Source: Dysgonomonas hofstadii (GTDB lineage: Bacteria; Bacteroidota; Bacteroidia; Bacteroidales; Dysgonomonadaceae). From it: a stretch of DNA of 64,000 nucleotides. The position numbers were made by a program, and so were the translations under genes. Of the stretch, positions 22,124 to 35,369 are shown piece after piece (the first letter of the stretch is position 1; each line of letters starts with the position of its first letter). The notes under the pieces are model-generated. The model saw nothing but the letters and a program-made list of their open reading frames with translations, did no database searches and was not told where the DNA came from. The stretch covers positions 124,001 to 188,000 of the forward strand of contig NZ_JACIEP010000002.1 of NCBI RefSeq assembly GCF_014196915.1, given 5' to 3'.

Positions 22124-23104
22124 ATGGACACCATTAAATGGGGAATAATAGGAGCCGGAGACGTTACTGAAAAGAAGAGCGGTCCGGCCCTTTACAAGAT
22201 AGAACACTCGGAACTTATGGCTATAATGCGCCGTGATGAAGCCAAGGCAAAAGATTATGCCCAACGTCATAATGTTCCAAAGTATTATACCGACGCTGAC
22301 GACCTGATCAATGATCCGGAGATCAACATGATCTATGTGGCTACCCCACCCTCTTCCCATAAAGAATATACTATCAAAGCGCTTCTGGCAGGTAAACCTG
22401 TCTATGTGGAAAAGCCGATGGCAATGGATTATGCCGAATGCCTCGAAATGGTTTCTGCTGCCGATAATGCTAAACAAAAGCTATTCGTCGCCTATTACCG
22501 CAGAGGATTACCCTATTTTCGGAAAGTCAAAGAACTCTTGGACAGTAACATCATTGGTAAAGTTCTATCCGTAGATGTAAAATATATCCGTCCCGCAAGT
22601 GAGGCCGACAAGGATGTTAATATTCAACCATGGCGGGTGAAAAAAGATATCGCGGGCGACGGCTACTTCTTCGATATGGCTCCGCACACACTCGACATTC
22701 TCGATTTCCTGTTAGGCGAAATAGAAGATGCCAAAGGTTACGCCTGTAATCTGGCAGGTTATTACCAGGTATCTGATACTGTATCCGCCATTATGAAATT
22801 CAAGTCGGGAGCAACAGGCACAGGTCTATGGTGTTTCGTTAGCCCCGAAGAAGCCAGACAAGATACTGTCACCATCATGGGAATGAATGGCAGTATTAAG
22901 TTCAACACCTTCTCGTTCCAGCCTATTGCAGTAGTATCAGGCCATCAGGTTTCTTATTACGAAACCGACCAACCCGAACATATCCAGCAACCATTGATAC
23001 AAACAATTGTCGATGAACTAAGAGGCATCGACACCTGTCCCTCGACCGGAGTTTCAGGAGCAAGGACTTCCCGCATCATGGATATGATCACAGGAAGCCT
23101 ATAA
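22124..23104 (+). CDS. Gfo/Idh/MocA family NAD(P)-dependent oxidoreductase
   Basis: 326 residues. The N-terminal Rossmann fold carries WGIIGAGDVTEKKSGPAL (about 5-22), then MIYVATPPSSHKEYTIKAL and the family motif GKPVYVEKPMAM (about 89-100, with the EKP lysine). The C-terminal alpha/beta domain includes DGYFFDMAPHTLDILDFLLG, where the MAPHTLD His is the usual catalytic position. The substrate is likely a sugar or inositol-type polyol and cannot be specified. It begins 3 bases after the barrel gene, so it is probably the last gene of that operon, although a functional relation is not obvious. Confidence 0.9.
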   Translation: MDTIKWGIIGAGDVTEKKSGPALYKIEHSELMAIMRRDEAKAKDYAQRHNVPKYYTDADDLINDPEINMIYVATPPSSHKEYTIKALLAGKPVYVEKPMAMDYAECLEMVSAADNAKQKLFVAYYRRGLPYFRKVKELLDSNIIGKVLSVDVKYIRPASEADKDVNIQPWRVKKDIAGDGYFFDMAPHTLDILDFLLGEIEDAKGYACNLAGYYQVSDTVSAIMKFKSGATGTGLWCFVSPEEARQDTVTIMGMNGSIKFNTFSFQPIAVVSGHQVSYYETDQPEHIQQPLIQTIVDELRGIDTCPSTGVSGARTSRIMDMITGSL

Positions 23105-23105
23105 T

Positions 23106-24281
23106 CTAGCGCAATCGCTTTCTTTCAAAGACCACTCTGGAACAGGCCCAGTATAGAACAATACTTATCAGGCATAAACCGGCGGCTATCAGATATAAGT
23201 CCTCGAAAGACATATAGCCTGTTATATATCCGCCGATCAGCATACCTAGTGCCAGTCCCAGATCGAAACCAATGAGGTATGTAGAATTGGCCGTTCCCCG
23301 CTGGCTGTTTTCGGCAAGGTTGATATAAAGCGTTTGAAGCGCCGGAAACATCATCCCGAAGCCAACACCGATAAACAGACCCGAAGCGCAGAAAGCATAT
23401 ATATTATGTACTAAAGCAAATATACCGAAAGCAATAGCGACAATAGCCATAGCCGCCACATTTACCTGATGGATCATTCCCCTGTCTACCAGTTTCCCGG
23501 CAAACACACGGGAAGCCATAATTCCCCCTGCCCAGAAAAGAAAGAAAATACCCGCATTGGGAATTCCTATCTCTTTACCATATTGGGCCACAAAAGGGCC
23601 TATTGTCCCCCATGCAAAACACGGAAGAAGCTGATTCAGAAATATCGGCCATCCTTTAAGTAAGAAAAAACGGTCTAATGATATTTTTTGCGATTGTTCT
23701 ACTTTCGGGCGTTCGGGCGCTTTAATAAGAGCCACCGTAATTATACCCAATGTTCCCATACCGATAGCACACCAAAGCAGTGGATCGAATCCCCACGTAT
23801 TATATATATGAATAGCCACAAAAGGCCCTATGGCCATAGCCACATTCATAAATGTGCCGTAATATCCGATTCCTTCGGCACGGCGCTCAGATGGAACAAC
23901 ATCGATAGCCAATGTACTGGAAGAAACAGTCGACAATCCCCAGGTTATGCCATGCAGAAAACGAACAATTACAAAGATCAAAATCGTACTTGCCCAGAAA
24001 TAGCCAAAAAAGATGAGCACATAGCATGAAAACGCAATAAGTAATATTTTTTTTCGTGAATATAAATCCACCATATAGCCGGAAAACGGGCGGACAAACA
24101 TCAATGCAATAGCATAAGACGCCAGAACAATACCTGTTTTGGATTGCGCCACCCCCATTTGCTCCGTTATATATAGCGGTATCGACGGCATAAGCAGATT
24201 GAATGAGCATGCCATCAGAAAGTTTGCAATACAAACATTCAGATAACTCAACGACCATAATTTCGGCTTTACTGTTTCCAT
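23106..24281 (-). CDS. MFS transporter
   Basis: 391 residues with about twelve hydrophobic helices and the MFS motif A-like loop GYMVDLYSRKKILL between helices 2 and 3. Its sequence resembles the small-molecule/drug or arabinose efflux group (DHA-like). The substrate is unknown. It converges on the oxidoreductase, one base separating the two stops. Its upstream side abuts the repeat element at 24312, only 30 bases from the ATG, so the promoter must lie in or beyond the element; I see no TAnnTTTG box in the short gap. Confidence 0.88.
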   Translation of the reverse strand: METVKPKLWSLSYLNVCIANFLMACSFNLLMPSIPLYITEQMGVAQSKTGIVLASYAIALMFVRPFSGYMVDLYSRKKILLIAFSCYVLIFFGYFWASTILIFVIVRFLHGITWGLSTVSSSTLAIDVVPSERRAEGIGYYGTFMNVAMAIGPFVAIHIYNTWGFDPLLWCAIGMGTLGIITVALIKAPERPKVEQSQKISLDRFFLLKGWPIFLNQLLPCFAWGTIGPFVAQYGKEIGIPNAGIFFLFWAGGIMASRVFAGKLVDRGMIHQVNVAAMAIVAIAFGIFALVHNIYAFCASGLFIGVGFGMMFPALQTLYINLAENSQRGTANSTYLIGFDLGLALGMLIGGYITGYMSFEDLYLIAAGLCLISIVLYWACSRVVFERKRLR

Positions 24282-24311
24282 TATTTTAAATATTCACTAA
24301 TTATTTATACA

Positions 24312-24808
24312 AATCAGTAGATGGATTTAATCGTTCGTTTTTTTGTGCTACGCGCAATCGAAGATTGCTTGTGTTCCTTTTGGCTAAATCCCCAAAAGGA
24401 ACCAAAAACGCTTTGGTGGCTCATCCTTCGTGCGACCCGTTACAGGCTCACGGGCTAAATGGAAAGATTGTCCTGCGGACGCTTTCCATTTCACGCCCCT
24501 TTCGCCTGACGGGTGCCCCCCACTACGGCTTAATGCCACCGGGCGAAGCCACCAAGGCAGGGTAATCTTTGTCGTCGCATTGCGACTCCGGCATCATGTC
24601 CGCAACAGGGGTACCCACCCTGCGAAAGTGGCGTGAAACCAAATTCTGTTTGAGCCGAAGGCGAGTTTATTTGGTTTAGCCGCTGAGCAGATGGTGGGTC
24701 TGTGAGGACTGCAGCCTTGATTTTTTGTAACTTTTTTATCAAGAAAAAAGTTGAAGAAAAACGAACGATTATTTATTACAATCATAATAACTTCAACTAC
24801 TGATTGGC
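24312..24808 (+). repeat. Complex nested inverted-repeat element, copy 1 (long)
   Basis: About 497 bases. The left arm begins AATCAGTAGATGG and the right arm ends CTACTGATTGGC. Inside, AATCGTTCGTTTTT (24329-24342) and its inverse (24757-24770) bound a 442-base core with stable hairpins: GCAATC/GATTGC; GTTCCTTTTGG/CCAAAAGGAAC; AACTTTTTT/AAAAAAGTT; and AAACCAAAT/ATTTGGTTT. No protein-coding frame looks real. A second copy at 33085-33399 has identical core ends, lacks 182 internal bases (24500-24681 here) and has its arms inverted relative to the core. Confidence 0.9.
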
Positions 24809-24831
24809 ATGAATTATTAAAAAGAACGTTG

Positions 24832-25380
24832 TTAAAAAGCCAGCACCCTGACAACTGCGGCAAATATAATAAACAGCATGTAGCACACCGGGATGAACAA
24901 TATCCCAGCCAGTGACCAGTTGCGCGCATTGTTGGAGGCACGGGTAGCTCCGGCAAAATCTTTTGAATAGTAGAGAGACTCGACTTTCGATGCGAAGAAG
25001 ATACCTACAACACTCACCGGTGAACAGCAAAATATGGATAGCAGGATAGATTCCAGCAACCAGTTCTTGGGCATGGGTACAACATTGTTCCACTTACTAT
25101 CTTCGTTTCTGTAGGCAGAGCCGGGTGTGTATGACGACGGCTGTGTGTTATGCCTGATATCTAAAGGCTGCCTGACCGGCTCTGTCTTCTCCTGGGGTAG
25201 AGGGATCCTGCTGTTGAACAGAAAAGCCAGTTCTTCAACACTGTCGGCTCTTTTCCAGTCGGGCATTCCCGACCGCCAGACCATTGTTTCGGGGCGTATG
25301 TTTTTACCTTGCAACTCATCCAGAGGAAAGGGCCCCTGTTGTTGCCTGGTCACATCATCTATATAGTAGTATTTAATCAT
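24832..25380 (-). CDS. GYF_2-CD225/dispanin family membrane protein
   Basis: 182 residues. Residues 1-50 (KYYYIDDVTRQQQGPFPLDE ... MVWRSGMPDWKRADSVEEL) form a GYF_2 domain with its typical W-x-x-G-x-x-x-W core. A proline-rich linker follows, then a CD225-like pair of membrane helices (about 108-130 and 154-178) with PKNWLLESILLSIFCCSPVSVVGIFFASKVE before the second helix. The role is unknown; the family includes interferon-induced membrane proteins. It starts 21 bases from the PBP stop on the same strand. Its 3' end lies 24 bases from the repeat arm. Confidence 0.87.
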   Translation of the reverse strand: MIKYYYIDDVTRQQQGPFPLDELQGKNIRPETMVWRSGMPDWKRADSVEELAFLFNSRIPLPQEKTEPVRQPLDIRHNTQPSSYTPGSAYRNEDSKWNNVVPMPKNWLLESILLSIFCCSPVSVVGIFFASKVESLYYSKDFAGATRASNNARNWSLAGILFIPVCYMLFIIFAAVVRVLAF

Positions 25381-25401
25381 CCGTGTTTCGGGCAGTTCGT
25401 G

Positions 25402-27777
25402 TTATTTAAACATCTTGTCGATGCCGACAGGTGGCGTGTCATTTGTGTCGTCCGCGTCGTCCGCCTTATCGCAGACTCCATATCCTTTTACGACAGGGAA
25501 ATGTTCAGTCTGGCTGTATCCGAGGGTCTTGTCTGCGAATACTTTTTTATAGAATAGTCCTACGATAGGGAGAGCCGAACTGGCACCTTGTCCGTTGGCC
25601 ATGCTGTCGAAGTGTATGGTGCCTTCATCGCCGCCTACCCAGCATCCGGCCGAAAGGCTCGGAGTGAATCCCATAAACCATCCGTCGGTATTGTCGTTGG
25701 TCGTTCCTGTCTTGCCACCCATCGGTGCGGTTATGCCATAGCGCCTGATGCGGCTACCTGTTCCTCCGTTAACCACGCCTTGCAGCATATCTATCATTTT
25801 TACATACGATGCTTCACTGAATACTTCCCGTAACTGAGGAGTAAAGTTGGCGATGATATTTCCATATTGGTCTTCTATATGTGTTACATATATAGGACTT
25901 ACACGTACACCTTTGTTGGCGAAAGAAGTATAGGCTGAAGCCATCTCCGCTACTGTGACTTCGGGAGTTCCCAGTGACATGGAAACTACCGGGTCTATGC
26001 GTCCTGTAAGACCGAACGAGTACAGCATCCGTACAAACGTGTAAGGCGAAGTCCTGCTCATCAGGTAAGCAGTGACCATATTATCAGAGTTTTGTAATCC
26101 CCATCTTATAGTGACCGTTTCCCCGACTTTAGATGCTTTCAGTCCCCGTGGGGTCCATTCTTTGCCGTTTTCGGTAATCAGTGTTTGTTGTGCATAGACC
26201 ATTTCGTCGCAAGGAGTCATGCCTTCCTCCATAGCCAGTGTATAGAGGTATGGTTTAATGGTGGAACCTACCTGACGACGCCCCATATTCACCATGTCGT
26301 ATTGGAAAAATCCGTAATCGATACCGCCTACATAGGCTTTCACATAGCCATTGTGGGTGTCCATAGCCATGAAACCCGAGCGGAGGAATGATTTGTGATA
26401 GCGGATAGAATCGAGCGGTGTCATTATCGTATCGGTTTCTCCCCGCCACGAAAAGACTTTCATTTCTATCGGTTTCTTAAATGCCTTTTCTATCTCGTTT
26501 TCCGATATTCCGGCCTTTTTCATTGCCTTGTACCTGTCGGAGTTTTTCATGGCACGGGCGAGTCTTTCATCTACTTTATTTCGTTCCGAGTAAGCATAAG
26601 GGGCATAGGCACGTCCTTTCTTCTCTTTATCGAATTTAGGTTGCAGGTCTTTGCTCAGATGTTCGGTCATCGCTTCTTCGGCATATTGTTGCATACGGGA
26701 ATCTACTGTCGCGTATATTTTAAGGCCGTCGGTAGACAGATTGTAATTCGAACCATCAGACTTTTGGTTTTTGTTACACCATCCATACAACGGATTTGTC
26801 TCCCAGTTGAGCGAATCCAGTGAGAATTGTTGCATCTGCCAGTCTGCATAATTAGATCTGTCCGGTTTTTTTGCGCTCATTGTGATACGCAGGTATTCGC
26901 GGAAATAAGGAGCAAGGCCATCTTTATGGTCAACTCTTTTGAAATCTAATTTCAGAGGGATAGCTTTTAATGAGTCGTATTTTTGTTGAGTAATGTAGCC
27001 GTGGTTTTGCATCTGCTTCATCACCACATTACGTCTTTCTTCTGTTCTTTTGGCGTATCTCTTAGGATTGTAATATGAAGGGTTCATACACATTCCGATA
27101 AGTGTAGCGGATTCCTCTATAGTTAATTCTTTAGGCGTTTTATTGAAATAGACCTGTGCCGCCGATTGTATTCCCACGGCATTGTACAGGAAGTCGAACT
27201 GGTTGAGATAGAGGTTTATAATCTCTTCTTTTGTATAATACCGCTCTAGTTTTACGGCGATAACCCACTCGATGGGCTTTTGTAAAGCACGCTCTATAAA
27301 ACTGTTAGAACGTGGCGAGTAGAGCTGTTTAGCTAATTGTTGCGATATAGTACTTCCTCCCCCCGCACTTCTGTCGAAAAGTAGTATCCTTTTGAATACA
27401 GCGCGTCCCAATGCGTATGCGTCTATTCCCGAATGGGAATAATAACGCGCATCTTCGTTGGCCACAAGCGCTTGTGTAAGGTAAGGCGACAAATCATCGT
27501 AGTCGGAATAGATGCGGTTGTTTTTTGCCTGGGAATATGTGCCAAGCATAGTTCCGTCGGAAGAATATACCTGCGAAGCATATTTATCGATCGGATTCTC
27601 AAGGTCTTCGATCGGAGGCATATAACCAATCAACCCTAAACTGATAAGGGTAAAAATAAGGATAACCAGTGCTATTAGCGAACCGAAAGCAATCCATAAT
27701 CCTTTGACCGCTTTTTTCGGATTTATTTTGCTGAAAAAACCTTTCTTCTTTGACTTCTTTTTCGTTTCCTTTTCCAT
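25402..27777 (-). CDS. Class A penicillin-binding protein (PBP1A-type)
   Basis: 791 residues, a bifunctional peptidoglycan synthase. A basic cytoplasmic start and one membrane helix (about 29-52) precede the GT51 transglycosylase with VANEDARYYSHSGIDAYALG (catalytic Glu) and GGSTISQQLAKQLYS. The transpeptidase carries the active-site GSTIKPYLYTLAMEE (STIK), SDN in QNSDNMV and GKTGTTNDNTDGW (KTG). All catalytic motifs are intact. A TAAATTTG box on the minus strand lies 22 bases before the ATG. The GYF_2-CD225 gene follows on the same transcript. Confidence 0.96.
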   Translation of the reverse strand: MEKETKKKSKKKGFFSKINPKKAVKGLWIAFGSLIALVILIFTLISLGLIGYMPPIEDLENPIDKYASQVYSSDGTMLGTYSQAKNNRIYSDYDDLSPYLTQALVANEDARYYSHSGIDAYALGRAVFKRILLFDRSAGGGSTISQQLAKQLYSPRSNSFIERALQKPIEWVIAVKLERYYTKEEIINLYLNQFDFLYNAVGIQSAAQVYFNKTPKELTIEESATLIGMCMNPSYYNPKRYAKRTEERRNVVMKQMQNHGYITQQKYDSLKAIPLKLDFKRVDHKDGLAPYFREYLRITMSAKKPDRSNYADWQMQQFSLDSLNWETNPLYGWCNKNQKSDGSNYNLSTDGLKIYATVDSRMQQYAEEAMTEHLSKDLQPKFDKEKKGRAYAPYAYSERNKVDERLARAMKNSDRYKAMKKAGISENEIEKAFKKPIEMKVFSWRGETDTIMTPLDSIRYHKSFLRSGFMAMDTHNGYVKAYVGGIDYGFFQYDMVNMGRRQVGSTIKPYLYTLAMEEGMTPCDEMVYAQQTLITENGKEWTPRGLKASKVGETVTIRWGLQNSDNMVTAYLMSRTSPYTFVRMLYSFGLTGRIDPVVSMSLGTPEVTVAEMASAYTSFANKGVRVSPIYVTHIEDQYGNIIANFTPQLREVFSEASYVKMIDMLQGVVNGGTGSRIRRYGITAPMGGKTGTTNDNTDGWFMGFTPSLSAGCWVGGDEGTIHFDSMANGQGASSALPIVGLFYKKVFADKTLGYSQTEHFPVVKGYGVCDKADDADDTNDTPPVGIDKMFK

Positions 27778-27799
27778 ATGGTGTAAAAAGTGTGCGCTG

Positions 27800-27807
27800 C
27801 AAATTTA
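27800..27807 (-). promoter_or_regulatory. -7 promoter box of the class A PBP gene
   Basis: TAAATTTG on the minus strand, a match to TAnnTTTG 22 bases upstream of the ATG. Confidence 0.45.
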
Positions 27808-27896
27808 AGCAAAACGTTTCAATAATGTAGATAAAAAAACTTAAATGCTGATAGTAGCTTCGGTTAAGGCTGTGAATGATTGTAAAATAGCTAATA

Positions 27897-29303
27897 TCAG
27901 TTTCTTATATTTGTATTGAATTTCTCTGTTTTCTTAAATTCGCTAAATTCGACGGAATATAAACTTGCTGATGGTGTTTTTGAAAATTCGTTGTATTCAT
28001 ATCCTCCTAATATATAGAGTTTTTCGTTGTGAAAATATATTTCCGCGTATTTAAGGTTCAGGTTTATAAGGTATGCGTTTATTTCCCCGTTCCTGGTGTT
28101 GTAAGTTTGTATTTTTCCATCATCGAAAATGTAAATAATATTGTCATTGTAAGTGATGGCTGGTCTTTCGCATGGATATAAGAGTAATGTCCCGGTATCC
28201 CATTTTCCTGATGACAAGTCGTACAATTCGATTGTCTCCAACGCTTTTGTGTTGTATCCACCGATAAGGTATGCCTTGTTTCCAATAACGATTCCTTTGG
28301 CTTCTTTACCTTGCGGCATGTCTCCCAATTGGTACCAGTAACCTGTTTTGAGGTTTAACAGGTGGATCTTATCCGAATAGCTTTTTGTTTCTTTTACGCT
28401 TGTTTCCCGGAATTTAACGGAGCCTCCCATCACAATGATATTGTCTTCGCAGATATCCGACATGAAATTTATTGCCTGATGTGGATTTGTTTTATCGGTA
28501 TGTATTTTGTCTTTTCTTATATCATATATTTCCAGAGTTTCGTCGAGATATTCGAATTTGCGATTTGTTGATAATCGTTTACCACCAAGGATATATAACT
28601 TTCCGTTGAAATAATTCATATTAAGGTATGCCCGGTCTTTAAATTCATGTTTGGATGTTTCCCATTTGCCCGATGTTATGTCATATATATACATCTTGTT
28701 ATTGTAAGCGACCCATTTCGTGGAACTTTCCAGCCTTTTTGCAAATTCCTCAAACATAGCTTCATTTCCTCGTTCCTGAGCATGGGGATTCGCTTCCGAC
28801 ATGGCTTTTAAACCATCATCCTGTTCAACTGATTCATTACCTCCCACTACATATATTTTGTCGCCAACCAGTTGTGCGCCAAAAGAAAATAACCCTTTTG
28901 GCATCGATGCCAGTTTTTTATAACTGAGGAATGGTTTCAGTTCTATTTTTTTGCCTTCTACGGTCACTCCTTGCAGAGAGCGGGTGTTTTCCGTAAGGAA
29001 TACCGTGTAGTTATTGTCTATTGTCTCTCTCAGTGAAATACTTTTGCCTGTGTAACTCACATGGGAGAAATGCAGTATATCGGTTTCTTTGATTTTAGGT
29101 AAATCTTTCAGGAAGAATTCACCATCCTTGTTTGTGACTGTTCCTTTTGTAAGATCGTCGGATTGTACCGATACTCCTTGTATGGGGGTGTTTGTAGCCT
29201 GATCCAGAACCTTTATTTTGTTTTGGGCAGATAATGGAAGCAATACTGAAAACAGGATGATGATTACTGTCGTAAAAAATCTGTATCTAAGTGTGGATCT
29301 CAT
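27897..29303 (-). CDS. Secreted Kelch-repeat protein with carboxypeptidase-regulatory-like domain
   Basis: 468 residues. A signal peptide (about 1-27, ending PLSAQ) is followed by a CarboxypepD_reg-like beta-sandwich (about 30-110, IKVLDQATNTPIQGVSVQSD and TNKDGEFFLKDLP). Kelch-type blades follow from about 125 to 450, seen in repeats such as DKIYVVGGNE, GKLYILGGKR, DNIIVMGGSV, NKAYLIGGYN and EKLYILGGYE. The Kelch propeller is a binding domain; target unknown. The first domain is also the N-terminal module of many SusC-type receptors, but no plug or barrel follows here. It lies upstream of the PBP on the same strand with its own gap. Confidence 0.82.
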   Translation of the reverse strand: MRSTLRYRFFTTVIIILFSVLLPLSAQNKIKVLDQATNTPIQGVSVQSDDLTKGTVTNKDGEFFLKDLPKIKETDILHFSHVSYTGKSISLRETIDNNYTVFLTENTRSLQGVTVEGKKIELKPFLSYKKLASMPKGLFSFGAQLVGDKIYVVGGNESVEQDDGLKAMSEANPHAQERGNEAMFEEFAKRLESSTKWVAYNNKMYIYDITSGKWETSKHEFKDRAYLNMNYFNGKLYILGGKRLSTNRKFEYLDETLEIYDIRKDKIHTDKTNPHQAINFMSDICEDNIIVMGGSVKFRETSVKETKSYSDKIHLLNLKTGYWYQLGDMPQGKEAKGIVIGNKAYLIGGYNTKALETIELYDLSSGKWDTGTLLLYPCERPAITYNDNIIYIFDDGKIQTYNTRNGEINAYLINLNLKYAEIYFHNEKLYILGGYEYNEFSKTPSASLYSVEFSEFKKTEKFNTNIRN

Positions 29304-29342
29304 ATTATCAAATAAAAAGTTATTTATCTATACTATAAACTC

Positions 29343-29396
29343 AGTAGTCAGAGGAGTTAAGGCATAGTAATAATCAACTTGACTACTCTGACTACT
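29343..29396. repeat. Hairpin in divergent gap
   Basis: AGTAGTCAGAG (29343-29353) and CTCTGACTACT (29386-29396) can pair around a 32-base loop between the Kelch gene and the HTH gene. Related GTAGT/GACTAC words occur at 8157-8265 and 38150-38185. Confidence 0.45.
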
Positions 29397-29419
29397 TTAA
29401 CTACTAAAAAACAAAAACT

Positions 29420-29974
29420 ATGGCTAAGTACACAGAAGAACTAGTATCGGAAATCATATCATTGATCGAATCCGACATTTACACAGTAAAAGAACTATGC
29501 ATGGTAGCGCGTATCTCCCGCGAAACCTATTACCAGTGGCTCGACACCAAACCCGAATTTAAGAAAGCGGTGGATGAAGCCATGAAGCAACGGGACGAGA
29601 TGCTGGTGTCCATTGCCCGTGCTTCGCTTCGCAAGAAACTGGAAGGTTATACACTCGAAGAAGAGAAAGTGGTGTACGAACCTGCCAAAAGCAATCCGCA
29701 TGTGCAGATAGAAAAATCACGGGTAGTAAAGAAGAAACAATATCCGCCGAACTTAGCGGCAATCAAATATGTGCTGGAACAGGAAGAAAAACGTAAGGAG
29801 AAAGAAGCGGCAGAAAAGCCGAAACTACGGCAGCAAATTATCTATGTAAATAACCAACATGAGGCAGACTTATTTATTCAGCTGGATAAACATCTGAACG
29901 GAGCGGATAGTGAAGTCATCAGGATGGCAACAGAAGAAGAAAGAGAAAAAATTAAGAATGAAATGCCTTGTTAA
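29420..29974 (+). CDS. Helix-turn-helix protein resembling phage terminase small subunits
   Basis: 184 residues. The N-terminal helix-turn-helix (about 5-45, with VKELCMVARISRETYYQWLD) resembles phBC6A51/terminase small-subunit or transposase-type HTH modules. The middle is highly charged and helical, containing AIKYVLEQEEKRKEKEAAEK, and ends without a recognised domain. No terminase large subunit, portal or integrase is nearby, so this is either a phage relic or a domesticated DNA-binding protein. Codon usage looks like the neighbours. It is isolated between word-repeat gaps. Function is inferred only from the HTH. Confidence 0.6.
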   Translation: MAKYTEELVSEIISLIESDIYTVKELCMVARISRETYYQWLDTKPEFKKAVDEAMKQRDEMLVSIARASLRKKLEGYTLEEEKVVYEPAKSNPHVQIEKSRVVKKKQYPPNLAAIKYVLEQEEKRKEKEAAEKPKLRQQIIYVNNQHEADLFIQLDKHLNGADSEVIRMATEEEREKIKNEMPC

Positions 29975-30269
29975 CTGATAACTGTTGACTGATATGTCAG
30001 GTTTTGTTTAGTGTACTAGAAAAAAGTATACTAGTTTACTAGAAGGAATATTAATAAAACTAGCAAGCTAGTAAACTTGGAACTAGCAAACTAAAAATTA
30101 TGTCAGGTTTGTCAGGTTTTTATTTAAAACCGCAGAATAAAAGGAACCGCACAGAGTTTTATTGAGTCTCATAAACTAAAGGATTATAATAATTGCGACT
30201 TTGCGTCTTTGCGAGAAGACAAATTGACTGTTGACTGTAAAAAATGTTACCTTTGCAAAAACATTTTTT
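29975..30269. other. 295-base gap rich in recurrent short words
   Basis: Contains AACTGATAACTGTTGACTGA (29973-29992), a run of CTAG-centred words (GTATACTAGTTTACTAG; CTAGCAAGCTAGTAAAC), GTCAGG-TTTGTCAGG (about 30103-30117) and TTTGCGTCTTTGCGAGAA (about 30201-30218, the inverse of the word at 12643). The ABC-F promoter box sits at its end. No gene. Confidence 0.5.
30248..30255 (+). promoter_or_regulatory. -7 promoter box of the ABC-F gene
   Basis: TACCTTTG, 14 bases before the ATG at 30270; supports that start over an upstream one at 30231. Confidence 0.55.
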
Positions 30270-32147
30270 ATGGCACCTATTTTACAGGTAGAGGGACTTG
30301 CCAAAAGCTTTGGCGACTTAGTATTATTCACCGATATATCCTTTGGTATTTCCGAGGGAGAGCGTATCGGGCTGATCGCGAAAAACGGTTCGGGAAAGAC
30401 TACTTTACTCAATATATTGACCGATAAAGAACCTTATGATAAAGGCTCGGTAGTATTCCGTCGTGATCTGCGTATAGCTTATCTTGAACAAGACCCTGTA
30501 TATCCCGAACACCTGACGGTTTTGCAGGCCTGCTTTCAGTCGGGAAATGAGGTCACAGACCTGATAGCCGAATATGAAAGGGTTATCAATTCAAAGGATC
30601 ATAGTAATCTTGATGCTATCCTGCAAAAGATGGATATGCTTCAGGCATGGGATTACGAACACAGAGCCAAGCAGATTCTGGGACAGTTGAAGATCACAGA
30701 CTTCGAGCAGAGAATATCGGAGTTGTCGGGAGGACAACTGAAACGGGTAGCACTGGCTAATGTGCTGATAACAGAACCCGATCTTATTATTCTGGACGAG
30801 CCTACCAATCACCTCGACCTCGATATGGTGGAATGGCTCGAGGAATACTTACAGCGTTCGCGCCTTAGTCTGCTGATGGTAACGCATGACCGCTATTTTC
30901 TCGACCGTGTATGTAATGAGATCATCGAGATAGACCAACAACAGCTATACCGTTACAAAGGCAATTATTCCTATTATCTGGAAAAACGGGACGAGCGTGT
31001 CAGCGCTCAGAATGCAGAGATAGACCGTGCGAACAACCTGTTGCGAAAGGAACTGGAATGGATGCGCCGGCAGCCACAGGCACGGGGAACGAAAGCAAAA
31101 TCACGCATCGACGCTTTTTACGATCTGGAAAAGAAAGCCGAACAGATACGGGATGCCGGAAATGTGAAACTGCAAATGAAAGGCTCGTATATCGGCAACA
31201 AGATATTTGAAGCGCAGCATGTGTATAAGTCTTTCGGGGATATCCGGATTCTGGAAGACTTCAACTATGTTTTCGCCCGCTACGAGAAGCTGGGAGTAGT
31301 TGGTAATAACGGTACGGGTAAATCCACTTTCATCAAAATGCTGATGGGTGAAGTACAGCCCGATAAGGGGGGATTCGATATCGGGGAAACGGTGAAATTC
31401 GGTTATTATAGTCAGGACGGCCTGCAGTTTGACGAACAGATGAAAGTGCTGGATGTGATACAGAATATAGCGGAGGTCATCGATTTAGGAAATGGTAATA
31501 AACTGACGGCTTCGCAGTTTCTGCAACATTTTCTTTTCCCGCCCGAAAAGCAGCATAACTTTGTCTACAAGCTGTCGGGAGGAGAAAAACGCCGACTTTA
31601 CCTGTGTACAGTTCTTATCACCAATCCAAACTTCCTTGTACTGGACGAGCCGACGAATGACCTCGACATCGTTACGCTGAATATATTGGAAGAATACCTG
31701 CAACAGTTCAAAGGTTGCGTGATAGTGGTATCGCACGACCGCTATTTTATGGATAAGGTGGTCGACCATCTGCTGGCATTCCAGGGACAGGCAAAGATCA
31801 AGGACTTTCCGGGCAATTACACCCAATACAGGGAATGGAAAGAGATTCAGGAAGCGTTGGAAAAAGAAAAAGAGCAACAGACTAAACCAAAAGAAGAGAA
31901 GCCTCAATCGGCAGTTCCCAAGCAAGATGAAAAGAAAAAACTCTCTTTCAAGGAGAGGAGGGAGTTTGAGGAACTCGACACCCTGATACCGAAACTGGAA
32001 GAAGAGAAAGCAAATATAGAAGCGGAACTTTCGAGTGGAATACTTTCGAGCGACGACCTCATAACTAAATCGAACCGTATAGGTGAACTGATAGATGAGA
32101 TAGATGAGAAGACCATGCGTTGGATGGAATTGAGTGAATGGATATGA
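30270..32147 (+). CDS. ABC-F family ATPase (Uup-like)
   Basis: 625 residues from MAPILQVEGLAKSFGDLVLF. Two ABC modules without membrane domains: Walker A AKNGSGKTTLLN and GNNGTGKSTFIK; signatures LSGGQLKRVALA and LSGGEKRRLYLC; Walker B LIILDEPTNHLD and FLVLDEPTNDLD. An inter-domain linker (about 235-300) and a C-terminal coiled coil (about 560-625, FEELDTLIPKLEEEKANIEA) complete the Uup/ABC-F plan. ABC-F proteins act on ribosomes; Uup-type members are not usually resistance factors. Walker B Glu residues are intact. Its stop overlaps the next gene's start. Confidence 0.93.
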   Translation: MAPILQVEGLAKSFGDLVLFTDISFGISEGERIGLIAKNGSGKTTLLNILTDKEPYDKGSVVFRRDLRIAYLEQDPVYPEHLTVLQACFQSGNEVTDLIAEYERVINSKDHSNLDAILQKMDMLQAWDYEHRAKQILGQLKITDFEQRISELSGGQLKRVALANVLITEPDLIILDEPTNHLDLDMVEWLEEYLQRSRLSLLMVTHDRYFLDRVCNEIIEIDQQQLYRYKGNYSYYLEKRDERVSAQNAEIDRANNLLRKELEWMRRQPQARGTKAKSRIDAFYDLEKKAEQIRDAGNVKLQMKGSYIGNKIFEAQHVYKSFGDIRILEDFNYVFARYEKLGVVGNNGTGKSTFIKMLMGEVQPDKGGFDIGETVKFGYYSQDGLQFDEQMKVLDVIQNIAEVIDLGNGNKLTASQFLQHFLFPPEKQHNFVYKLSGGEKRRLYLCTVLITNPNFLVLDEPTNDLDIVTLNILEEYLQQFKGCVIVVSHDRYFMDKVVDHLLAFQGQAKIKDFPGNYTQYREWKEIQEALEKEKEQQTKPKEEKPQSAVPKQDEKKKLSFKERREFEELDTLIPKLEEEKANIEAELSSGILSSDDLITKSNRIGELIDEIDEKTMRWMELSEWI

Positions 32148-32995
32148 AAAGAATGAGGCTACTCTTATTGATGTTTTGCACAGTGTATACTTCCTTACAG
32201 GCTACCGAGTGCGCAGACAGATTCTTTATAGAAAAGCATGTGAATCTGGCTATCTGTAAAAACCATGCACGTGGATTGGAAGAAGCCGCATTATATTATA
32301 GTGGAGTAGCCAAAGCATTAGATGACTATATTGCCCTCCGTATCGAGCGAGGGGAATTGCAGGATAAGAAATTTGAAATCTATATGCTCGATCCTATCCT
32401 TACCCGTCCGCATATCTTCCTTACACAAAGTAAGAAAGGATATCACATAATGACAGGGAGGGCGCATACCTTAGATGAGCTATTGTGTATGGTGGATGAA
32501 TTCTCCAAACTGGATTTCACGGCAATAGACGTAATTGTCGATAGTTACGATGAAAAAGAATATGACAGGCAGGAACAACAACTAGATAAGTTGGAGAAAA
32601 GATTATTCGGCAAACAGCTTCCACAAACGGATATAGAGCTTATAAAAAATAAAGAATATATAACCCACCAGCAGAATAAGCTGAAGCTGGTATATAAGAA
32701 CGATAAGGTAAAATGCCTTATAGACGAAGTCGAAATACAAACCGAGCTAAAAGGTTTACCATGGAATATTCAGGATCGGTATATTTTTCAGGAATGCGGG
32801 GTGTTTAAAGTCTATCAGGATTCTGCGCTTATCAAAACATTCCGGTATCAGGGAAATGATGAGTGGGAATGTGAGTATATGGACTATGCAGAAGTATTTA
32901 ATAAATGGGTAAACTTCAGATTGTATGGCTATAACCAATATAGCTACTCTTATGATAAAAACAGATTTTATTATACCGGAGATAAAAAGGATTGA
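32144..32995 (+). CDS. Unknown secreted protein
   Basis: 283 residues, family not recognised. The ATG at 32144 overlaps the ABC-F stop (ATGA), indicating translational coupling; an ATG two codons upstream at 32138 is also possible. A signal peptide (MKRMRLLLLMFCTVYTSLQA) precedes a polar protein with a charged helical stretch (EKEYDRQEQQLDKLEKRLFG) and an aromatic C-terminus (FRLYGYNQYSYSYDKNRFYY). A Cys follows the presumed cleavage site by a few residues, but no lipobox is clear. No function can be offered. Confidence 0.7.
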   Translation: MKRMRLLLLMFCTVYTSLQATECADRFFIEKHVNLAICKNHARGLEEAALYYSGVAKALDDYIALRIERGELQDKKFEIYMLDPILTRPHIFLTQSKKGYHIMTGRAHTLDELLCMVDEFSKLDFTAIDVIVDSYDEKEYDRQEQQLDKLEKRLFGKQLPQTDIELIKNKEYITHQQNKLKLVYKNDKVKCLIDEVEIQTELKGLPWNIQDRYIFQECGVFKVYQDSALIKTFRYQGNDEWECEYMDYAEVFNKWVNFRLYGYNQYSYSYDKNRFYYTGDKKD

Positions 32996-33084
32996 AGTTG
33001 TATCAAAATCAGAAAACTTTATCTATACATAAAAGGTTAACATAAGACATTGTGTTGACAGAATAATTATCTTTTATAATTAAC

Positions 33085-33399
33085 GCCAATCAGTAGTTGA
33101 AGTTATTATGTTTGTAATAAATAATCGTTCGTTTTTTTGTGCTACGCGCAATCGGAGATTGCTTGTGTTCCTTTTGGCCAAATCCCCAAAAGGAACCAAA
33201 AACGCTTTGGTGGCTCATCCTTCGTGCGACCCGTTACAGGCTCACGGGCTAAATGGAAAGATTGTCCTGCGGACGCTTTCCATTTCACGCCCCGCTGAGC
33301 AGATGGTGGGTCTGTGAGGACTGCAGCCTTGATTTTTTGTAACTTTTTTATCAAGAAAAAAGTTGAAGAAAAACGAACGATTAAATCTATCTACTGATT
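33085..33399 (+). repeat. Complex nested inverted-repeat element, copy 2 (short)
   Basis: About 315 bases. The left flank GCCAATCAGTAGTTGAAGTT is the inverse of copy 1's right arm, and the right flank is the inverse of copy 1's left arm (one mismatch each). The core (33123-33382, 260 bases) is in the same orientation as copy 1. The aligned core differs at two positions, both in hairpin loops (GAA/GGA and GCTAAATCC/GCCAAATCC). A 182-base segment of copy 1 is absent at CACGCCCC^GCTGAGC. Inner ends AATCGTTCGTTTTT and inverse are intact. Confidence 0.9.
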
Positions 33400-33418
33400 C
33401 ACATAATTCTGTAATATA

Positions 33419-33805
33419 TTGGCTACTGACAGAAAATATATACAACGGTTCCTCTCCATTATAATTATTATTATCATGGGAGGAATCTTATTCTACTTGT
33501 TCAGCCCCGAAGAATCAGGTTTTTTCCCAGTGTGCCCATTCCACTACCTTACAGGATATGACTGTCCGGGCTGCGGTTCACAACGGGCTTTACACCACCT
33601 GTCACATCTCCATCTCAGAGAAGCATTCCTAAGTAACCCTCTGCTGATTATCGCTATTCCGTTTCTTATATCCGGCATTTATCTGGAATACTTCGGGGGA
33701 AAAGAACGACACCCAGAAATAAGAAAAGCCCTTTATAGTAAAAGGGCTGTCTATATTATTCTTGCAATAATTATTTTGTTCTGGATCGGGCGAAATGTCG
33801 GTTAA
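33419..33805 (+). CDS. DUF2752 membrane protein
   Basis: 128 residues with the DUF2752 hallmark YDCPGCGSQRALHHL (about 48-62) between hydrophobic segments at about 11-29, 75-92 and 107-124. Function unknown. The only usable start is a TTG at 33419 (open frame begins just after a stop at 33404-33406), 20 bases from the repeat element, so the element may have replaced the original upstream region. From memory, DUF2752 genes often follow CD225/dispanin genes in this phylum; here that partner lies 8 kb away at the other copy of the repeat. Confidence 0.82.
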   Translation: MATDRKYIQRFLSIIIIIIMGGILFYLFSPEESGFFPVCPFHYLTGYDCPGCGSQRALHHLSHLHLREAFLSNPLLIIAIPFLISGIYLEYFGGKERHPEIRKALYSKRAVYIILAIIILFWIGRNVG

Positions 33806-33857
33806 GGAGTTATGAATTATGAGTTATAAATTATGAATTTTTCTCCATTTATAATTC
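33806..33857. repeat. AT-rich inverted word repeat
   Basis: GGAGTTATGAATTATGAGTT and, about 25 bases on, CATTTATAATTCACAATTCA form a partial inverted pair between the DUF2752 and TraB genes. Same family as at 2995-3024 and 6667-6765; may act as a convergent terminator. Confidence 0.5.
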
Positions 33858-33862
33858 ACAAT

Positions 33863-34795
33863 TCACTTTTTCACCGGTTCTACCTTATATCCCAGCTTCG
33901 CCAACTGGTACAATATTCCTTCTTCCCCTGCCAGATGAAGAGCACCCACAGCGATCAGATTTGATTTATCTTTCAGTATGGCAGGAAGTTTTTCCATCCA
34001 CTTGTTATTACGATCTTTAAGCAATGCATCCTGTTGCTCCTGCGAAGCCTGACATTCATCATCGGGATTATTAAAAGAGAAATTGTACATTCCCATCAGA
34101 TCTCCTTTATGATACAGGCGGTTCAGCTCATCCAGTTGTTCTTTTGCATCATCTTGTTGCCCTACCGCACATACCAAAGCTTCGGCCTGCTCTTTTAACG
34201 GCGTGGCATCGAATAAGGCATATATCTGGTCTTCCACACTTTCCAATCCCAAAACCGGTTTTTCTTTTTCCTTTGCTATGCGCTGCACATAAGCATCGAT
34301 AGCCTCATGGCTCATCGGATTGAATCCCGGATATATTTTCGTATAAAGAGTAATCGTGTAAAGCATTGAGATCATACCCGGCTTAAGGCTTCCCAATTGC
34401 GCCAGTCCTGCACCCACCACATTACTGACTCCTGCATCAAGCTTTGTATAATCTTCCGGAGATAATAGGGTATGATACGTCTCTCCGGCAGGCATCATGG
34501 CCGATTGTTGTATCTTAGTTTGCATAGCTGCCTGGTCTGACATGACCAGTTCTCCCACTGTCTGCTCTGCATTCTCCATCACATCTTTCAGGCCTGCTAT
34601 GCTATCCACAAAATTCACATGAACAAGATGATGGGTTCCTAGTATATAAGACGGCTTATCCAGCCCATTCCCCGATACTTTCCAAAGCAACGAGCCTGTA
34701 TAACTTTCCGCATTCTGCGCAGATGCATTCAAGTTCAGCAACAAAGCTAAAATGATAACCGACAAAAAAGATGTAATAACTTTCATATTCTTCAT
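33863..34795 (-). CDS. TraB/GumN family exported protein
   Basis: 310 residues: a signal peptide (about 1-27, ending ASAQ), then the TraB/GumN (Tiki-like) fold with SLLWKVSGNGLDKPSYILGT and HHLVHVNF (about 37-64) and the C-terminal GxH-type motif NLIAVGALHLAGEEGILYQL (about 280-299). The metal-binding GTHH and GALHLAGE motifs are preserved. Members are proposed metalloproteases, but activity in bacteria is little characterised. It is the last gene of a sigma-factor operon (10-base gap), which suggests envelope-stress or substrate-linked control. Confidence 0.88.
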   Translation of the reverse strand: MKNMKVITSFLSVIILALLLNLNASAQNAESYTGSLLWKVSGNGLDKPSYILGTHHLVHVNFVDSIAGLKDVMENAEQTVGELVMSDQAAMQTKIQQSAMMPAGETYHTLLSPEDYTKLDAGVSNVVGAGLAQLGSLKPGMISMLYTITLYTKIYPGFNPMSHEAIDAYVQRIAKEKEKPVLGLESVEDQIYALFDATPLKEQAEALVCAVGQQDDAKEQLDELNRLYHKGDLMGMYNFSFNNPDDECQASQEQQDALLKDRNNKWMEKLPAILKDKSNLIAVGALHLAGEEGILYQLAKLGYKVEPVKK

Positions 34796-34805
34796 TTATA
34801 ATTTT

Positions 34806-35369
34806 TCATTCTTCATTTTCTTCGAACTCTTCCACTTCTTTTATTGCGGCTTCAAGTTTCTTTATATTGTTCCAGTAAAGTTTTTTATATGTAAAGATAA
34901 CAGCAACAAAGGCAATTGCCATTGCTATTATATATATAAAAGAGGGGATGCCTTCATCCGAAAATTCCCAGTATCCAAGAAACAGTACAAAAGCAATGAA
35001 CCAGACAAGACCGACAATGAATTCTTTGTATATTATTTTCCGGTAACGATAAACCTGATTGGATATTTCGGTAATACTATGCTGTGCCATATCTACTTCT
35101 TTCAACTTCCGGTATTTATATAATTGCCAAAGTATACCCAACAAAACTGAAATAATGTAGCTAACAGCCACCGGCATGTATTTTCCAAAGACAAGATAAC
35201 CTATCGGTAAGCATATTATCAACATGATAATTCCAAATCTCTCATATTTCAGCAAACTATTAAAGGCACTATGTCCTTCATTCGACAGCATCTTCCGGAT
35301 TTTATCATCATCGATATCCGGCCTGATATCTGTTTGCTGCCATGTTTTTTTTATATTATCCAGATCCAT
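34806..35369 (-). CDS. Membrane protein encoded with ECF sigma factor (anti-sigma candidate)
   Basis: 187 residues. An N-terminal cytoplasmic helical segment (about 1-45, MDLDNIKKTWQQTDIRPDID) is followed by four hydrophobic segments (about 45-62, 66-84, 115-133 and 142-160) and an acidic C-terminus. It sits between an ECF sigma gene and a TraB gene with 10-base gaps on each side, the place where a membrane anti-sigma factor is expected. It lacks an evident zinc-binding anti-sigma motif, so that role is inferred from position only. Confidence 0.7.
   Translation of the reverse strand: MDLDNIKKTWQQTDIRPDIDDDKIRKMLSNEGHSAFNSLLKYERFGIIMLIICLPIGYLVFGKYMPVAVSYIISVLLGILWQLYKYRKLKEVDMAQHSITEISNQVYRYRKIIYKEFIVGLVWFIAFVLFLGYWEFSDEGIPSFIYIIAMAIAFVAVIFTYKKLYWNNIKKLEAAIKEVEEFEENEE

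Follow-up and report, generated by a model that had tools for sequence, protein, structure and literature searches.

A MITE-like repeat family of Dysgonomonas in which the core occurs in both orientations relative to its arms

Porphyromonas gingivalis belongs to the same bacterial order as Dysgonomonas, and its MITEs are the nearest described elements of that order known to us. A further parallel comes from plastid genomes, where small inversions bounded by hairpins flip recurrently between short inverted repeats, but these are organellar and, unlike the Dysgonomonas repeat described here, do not form a mobile repeat family. The P. gingivalis MITEs (BrickBuilt and MITE239/464/700) are short, gene-free and intergenic, are present in about 10–20 copies and carry terminal inverted repeats (PMC4596501), and the Dysgonomonas repeat is likewise short and gene-free with terminal inverted repeats. 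The likeness is one of description, and BrickBuilt differs in being filled by a 23-nt tandem repeat and in having irregular target duplications; the excerpted text of PMC4596501 reports no core inversion. REP/BIME palindromic mosaics and RAYTs (excerpts of PMC3733652 and PMC2817692) are similar to our repeat in that they are high-copy intergenic palindromes in mosaic arrangements. Inversion between short inverted repeats is known in the same order from the invertible promoters of Bacteroidales, which, in the excerpted accounts (PMC8748976; PMC3090145), have both a promoter and an invertase, whereas the Dysgonomonas repeat has no promoter-like site by a crude scan and no invertase nearby. Finally, when a polymerase switches template at short inverted repeats it leaves a published signature, namely inversion of the spacer together with homogenised arms; the inversions in the excerpted text change 2–5 bp, and short spacers are favoured (PMC8604942). 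In that system the repeat arms are homogenised and the inversion is recurrent, reversible and in no need of an enzyme site; the Dysgonomonas repeat resembles it in its inverted spacer and may do so in these other features, but the spacers in PMC8604942, as excerpted, are of a few bases, while ours is of ~420 bp and lies within a mobile element.

Two copies of the repeat are found in a stretch of 64,000 nucleotides from Dysgonomonas hofstadii, which we call the window and to whose first letter all window positions refer. Their parts are the following.

24302..24306, no strand: copy 1 left flank, presumed 5-bp target-site duplication (tattt); the right partner at 24811-24815 (gaatt) is decayed, with a 3/5 match
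24307..24328, + strand: copy 1 short arm, A, bearing the terminal inverted repeat ATACA-AATCAGTAGATG (sequence reading, arm comparison)
24329..24342, + strand: copy 1 left inner inverted repeat AATCGTTCGTTTTT (sequence reading, repeat scan)
24343..24756, + strand: copy 1 core, rich in hairpins and without an evident gene, co-oriented with the copy 2 core (repeat scan, ORF list, folding)
24757..24770, - strand: copy 1 right inner inverted repeat AAAAACGAACGATT (sequence reading, repeat scan)
24771..24810, - strand: copy 1 arm B (long), ending CAACTACTGATTGGCAT (sequence reading, arm comparison)
33078..33082, no strand: copy 2 left flank, presumed target-site duplication (aatta); the right partner at 33405-33409 (aattc) has a 4/5 match
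33083..33122, + strand: copy 2 arm B, at the left, inverted relative to copy 1 (sequence reading, arm comparison)
33123..33136, + strand: copy 2 left inner inverted repeat (sequence reading, repeat scan)
33137..33368, + strand: copy 2 core, co-oriented with copy 1 and without the part equivalent to ~24500-24681 (repeat scan)
33369..33382, - strand: copy 2 right inner inverted repeat (sequence reading, repeat scan)
33383..33404, - strand: copy 2 arm A, at the right, inverted relative to copy 1 (sequence reading, arm comparison)

A first-pass annotation of this DNA had described two copies whose arms are inverted relative to each other while their cores are not, and this layout is borne out. The cores are co-oriented, 24328-24499 and 33122-33293 being direct repeats at 99% identity and a second core piece, 24680-24771 and 33292-33383, likewise direct at 100%; the copy 2 core is shorter by ~182 bp. 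The outer arms are inverted between the copies by both repeat scan and direct reading (24757-24826 against 33067-33136, and 24305-24342 against 33369-33406), and within the element each arm differs by a single base, GATGGATTT/GATAGATTT in arm A and TTATGATTG/TTATGTTTG in arm B. The inner repeats are exact at 24329-24342, 24757-24770, 33123-33136 and 33369-33382. The limits given earlier, 24312-24808 and 33085-33399, were right in place but slightly short in extent, the copies reaching ~24307-24810 and ~33083-33404 with their ATGCS tips included. Arm B with its inner repeat makes a 52-bp inverted match at 98% identity with E ~5e-20 in a search of 40 loci of the own genome, and the inverted arm match is therefore not due to chance.

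No ORF of at least 80 aa lies wholly within either of these two copies, and a mechanical 120-aa ORF (24594-24956) spans the right end of copy 1. Rfam gave 0 matches at the curated cut-off over window positions 23000-35000; four sub-cut-off hits in 24250-24850 were taken as chance. The gene adjoining copy 1 (24832-25380, - strand) joins GYF_2 and CD225 domains. Between the two copies, at 29420-29974 (+ strand), lies an orphan gene of 184 aa with similarity to small subunits of phage terminases or to helix-turn-helix proteins of transposases (Pfam E 1e-5 to 7e-4). It has 18 matches in its own genome, seven of them at 94–100% identity (itself included), and four of the 18 (C16:78922, C6:4320, C6:70303 and C1:620505) have an element or an arm at a distance of no more than ~350 bp.

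The own genome (G000; 5.04 Mb in 44 contigs) holds 70 matching pieces, which we read as ~40 loci. The 40 distinct loci leave out L023, which is part of L039, and the duplicates L042-L050; with L058, L060 and L061, found via the arm motif, they make up the 43 loci tabulated below. L057, L059 and L063 were seen and left uncounted, L057 consisting of arm B, 400-odd bases of other sequence, the core and arm A. Among named relatives a broad pattern of the core motif found 44 stretches, all in Dysgonomonas, and a narrower own-species pattern found 0. At E <=0.001, 20 of 61 genomes of relatives (own included) match the repeat, some of these matches being weak. Phages gave no match to the family, and plasmids gave short hairpin matches only, in Persicobacter (4 records) and Aureibacter (1). 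These plasmid matches are to the hairpin at the right end (..AACTTTTTTATCAAGAAAAAAGTT.., window region 24712-24787), a module whose range in Bacteroidota exceeds that of the element. The single match among viral contigs, L209, is identical to G000 over 3,374 compared bases and thus gives no independent orientation state. We found no description of the family in the open literature, subscription journals being mostly outside the search, and as far as searches of open papers go this family of ~40 loci in one genome, without an Rfam match, is undescribed.

The element is built of a terminal inverted repeat, unequal arms (A short, B long), an inner inverted repeat of 13–18 bp and a hairpin-rich core of ~420 bp. 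Both ends carry the terminal inverted repeat ATGCSAATCAGTAGTT, as in a MITE. The unit that ends in these arms is transposon-like and flanked by target-site duplications, a point that the first-pass annotation did not include. Direct repeats of 5 bp just outside the ends are a mark of transposition, and in the 25 two-armed copies of the own genome (both arm scores at least 35) they match at a mean of 4.12 of 5 positions against 2.88 in shuffled pairs, 10 being perfect where 1.4 are expected. The duplications are kept in both core states, with means of 4.36 against 3.17 for AB copies and 3.89 against 2.77 for BA copies. A target duplication of 5 bp indicates a transposase of a kind other than RAYT. 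Near-tandem ATAACTC/GAGTTAT heptamers border L002, L008, L024, L026, L035 and L061 outside the target duplication. Parts of the element also occur separately, as coreless arm palindromes (L055, L056) and as armless cores, three of which have GGTC ends (L028, L032, L034).

No parent transposase or insertion sequence with the same ends was found when the end matches in G029, a genome of another genus of the same family, and in G003 were inspected by eye, together with G000 among the matches listed. One locus of G003, L169, was considered as an autonomous transposon and rejected, its two ends, 2.4 kb apart, enclosing other small ORFs that are not transposase-like; it is possibly a composite mobile unit. 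The MITE features tested have all been found with the exception of a parent transposase, and we regard the repeat as a MITE-like family of non-autonomous transposons, present in Dysgonomonas and in one related genus at least. Most likely it is a selfish, gene-free transposon that does nothing for its host.

When the 43 loci of the own genome are read with the core forward, 13 have the arrangement A-core-B, 12 B-core-A and 7 A-core-A, the other 11 falling into other classes; among the 40 distinct loci, 11 have a single arm, no arm or an unclear arm. The A-core-A copies are absent from the first-pass annotation. No convincing B-core-B copy is present among the 43; the script labels L018 as one, but a left score of 17 falls short of what an arm would give. 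G029, a single-contig assembly, has a different arm pair, and its 30 fetched loci comprise nine PQ (L150 being classed by eye, while the script alone gives 8), six QP and one QQ, with 14 others. In D. alginatilytica, with a third arm pair, the 16 copies are XY in five cases (including L118, whose right arm is weak), YX in two, YY in two and of other kinds in seven. Both core states are thus tabulated across the own genome and its relatives, near 1:1 in the former, and the outcome that had been named in advance as speaking against a flip, one fixed core orientation everywhere, does not hold in any of these three genomes. An assembly artefact, the other such outcome, is unlikely as a general cause, since both states are also found in the single contig of G029.

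A pairwise same/flip score was set aside because its 55-base windows entered the core and biased it towards 'same', and for G029 and D. alginatilytica the classification by arms only was used instead. With that bias towards 'same', the score (same/flipped/unclear) was 223/86/16 in G000, 92/4/24 in G029, 39/0/6 in D. alginatilytica and 8/0/2 in UBA7710. No flip was seen among the five copies of UBA7710 by this cruder score, which leans to 'same', and PF1-14 and D. capnocytophagoides have one pair each, scored as 'same'. Gene-strand counts beside the copies were also set aside, the ORF caller being crude and wrong at copy 2. On a tree of 16 G029 cores, 15 of them labelled, orientation is unclustered, with 5 changes against 4.9 in shuffles. 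This fits frequent flipping, and independent insertion of cores as well.

The first-pass annotation had claimed that one of the cores must have turned over inside its copy, as would fit a flip across the inner repeats; two sets of sister copies agree with this. As core identity is high among many copies, only arms, junctions and flanks identify sisters. In copies 1 and 2, which are opposite in state, the B-arm variant GAAGTT is found in these two alone among the 22 listed AB/BA copies, and the right-end junction that they share is otherwise absent from the 40 loci displayed, L003 being similar but different. The A-arm variant GTAGAT is more widespread and is found in L003 and L007 as well as in copies 1 and 2. 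From the private arm-B variant and junction we infer that copies 1 and 2 descend from one armed copy, one core having flipped afterwards. In the second set, L008 and L024 align in one orientation through the left flank and arm (97%, 91 bp) and through the arm and right flank (78%, 257 columns). Between these parts, 471 bp of core is inverted at 93%. L008 and L061 likewise have flanks and arms that are not inverted, whereas 208 bp (97%) and 93 bp (82%) of their core are. The direct and inverted alignments of these three loci overlap by 13–18 bp, which are the inner repeats, and this overlap places the inversion breakpoints there. The flank common to L008, L024 and L061 looks repetitive itself. 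In the one region compared as an orthologous locus (window 30231-34795, in 25 genomes) no locus in two orientations was found, the best match in another species being at 81% in a conserved gene. On the strength of the two sister sets we regard it as very probable that the core was inverted in place.

As single-stranded DNA, copy 1 folds at -107.5 kcal/mol against -64.6 for shuffled DNA (z -7.7), and all of nine chosen copies have z values of -6.6 to -10.8 against shuffled DNA; in the same nine, the left end partly pairs with the right end through 11–37 of the first 50 bases. The pairing of hairpin 1 is kept among 48 distinct segments despite two-sided changes, e.g. GTTCC/GGAAC and CATCC/GGATG. 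The copy 1 core (24343-24756) is an imperfect palindrome, the left hairpin context GGGCTAAA..TTTCACGCC recurring inverted at the right. In L026, L031, L033 and L035-L041 the ACCAAAT hairpin is at the opposite core position, reversed.

The inner repeats are species-specific in sequence (CGTTC, TGTTC, CGCTC), with GYTC common to the three species and the inverted-repeat structure kept. We scored within-copy matching for copies with a GTTC on each side (23 own, 15 from G029), which are related and do not represent independent cases. The four core-side bases following GTTC vary between copies but agree within a copy in 14 of 23 own copies against 7.9 in shuffles (p=0.002) and in 10 of 15 G029 copies against 4.6 (p=0.001). 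The four arm-side bases match in 12 of 23 own copies against 10.0 (p=0.14) and in 1 of 15 in G029 against 4.3, again among related copies. The first-pass annotation had proposed a site-specific or recombinational flip across the inner repeats; the flip at that place stands, and it might be site-specific but need not be. The sequence of the inner repeats is variable while their inverted relation is kept. A mechanism based on structure fits this combination at least as well as a site-specific one.

We suggest that the whole element, as single-stranded DNA, would fold into one long hairpin, and that the strong folding of the core would bring the inner repeats together despite the ~420 bp spacer between them. 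During replication, the new strand could then switch template at the inner repeats, whereby the core would be turned over and the two inner repeats made alike. Alternatively, a cruciform might be cut and rejoined at the inner repeats, which would also turn the core over. The A-core-A copies could be a natural by-product of template switching. The main difficulty with template switching is the spacer, which at ~420 bp contrasts with the few bases of the excerpted PMC8604942 cases and counts against it. The arm-side bases of the inner repeats, which do not match beyond chance, count against the homogenisation reading. Template switching or hairpin processing, to which we give about even chances, seems to us a likelier cause of the inversion than a dedicated recombinase. 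We lean slightly towards the statement as a whole, that is, a MITE-like family with both core orientations, inversion in place and a flip driven by structure. Rather than serving as a gene switch, the flip itself probably arises incidentally from the hairpin.

Alternatively, a site-specific recombinase supplied in trans could invert the core via the inner repeats at many loci; it would probably be a tyrosine invertase like those of Bacteroidales. Bacteroidales promoters are inverted at short inverted repeats, as the excerpted reports describe (PMC8748976; PMC3090145), and the GYTC kept across three species would also be explained by a recombinase site, the matched but variable core-side segment resembling a recombinase overlap region. 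Such an enzyme may act from afar: the own genome has 42 matches to the tyrosine recombinase family (PF00589) and 2 to the resolvase family (PF00239), although none is in C2:124001-188000, which upholds the earlier statement that no recombinase gene is nearby. The inner repeats, however, differ among copies and species, and an invertase alone would not yield the A-core-A copies seen at 7 of 43 loci. A crude Bacteroidales promoter consensus has 0 sites in 40 elements (19,613 nt) against 2 in 27,840 nt of flanks, which speaks against the recombinase and makes an ordinary promoter switch unlikely. We consider a recombinase possible but unlikely. Still less probable is the reading of the core as a dedicated flipping cassette on a mobile element, in which a single factor acting in trans would toggle dozens of loci per genome, each independently of the others.

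The core could also be a mobile unit in its own right, ending in the inner repeats and inserted either way into empty arm elements, so that no flip in place would be needed. The coreless arm palindromes and the armless cores with GGTC ends described above are in favour of such a unit, and it too predicts the unclustered orientation on the G029 tree. It does not sit well with copies 1 and 2, which are opposite in state despite their private arm-B and right-junction variants, nor with the flanks and arms common to L008, L024 and L061; by eye, moreover, the inner boundary shows no target duplication that is clear. Insertion of this kind is improbable in our view. That chromosomal recombination between different copies made the two states is very improbable: the cores are mosaic and alike between loci, so exchange does occur, but crossovers inside the core leave core and arm orientation linked, and the target duplications are still paired in both states, though later transposition could restore them.

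In conclusion, the repeat makes up a new family whose habit is unusual, and it is not a known gene switch. Should the flipping-cassette reading be true, a population would hold an enormous number of combinations of a structured DNA or RNA that is read out towards one neighbour or the other. If the flip is driven by structure, as we favour, each genome offers dozens of scoreable copies in which to study inversion of a long spacer between repeats of 13–18 bp, and surveys that read inversions between short repeats in Bacteroidales as enzyme-driven switches could then be in error.
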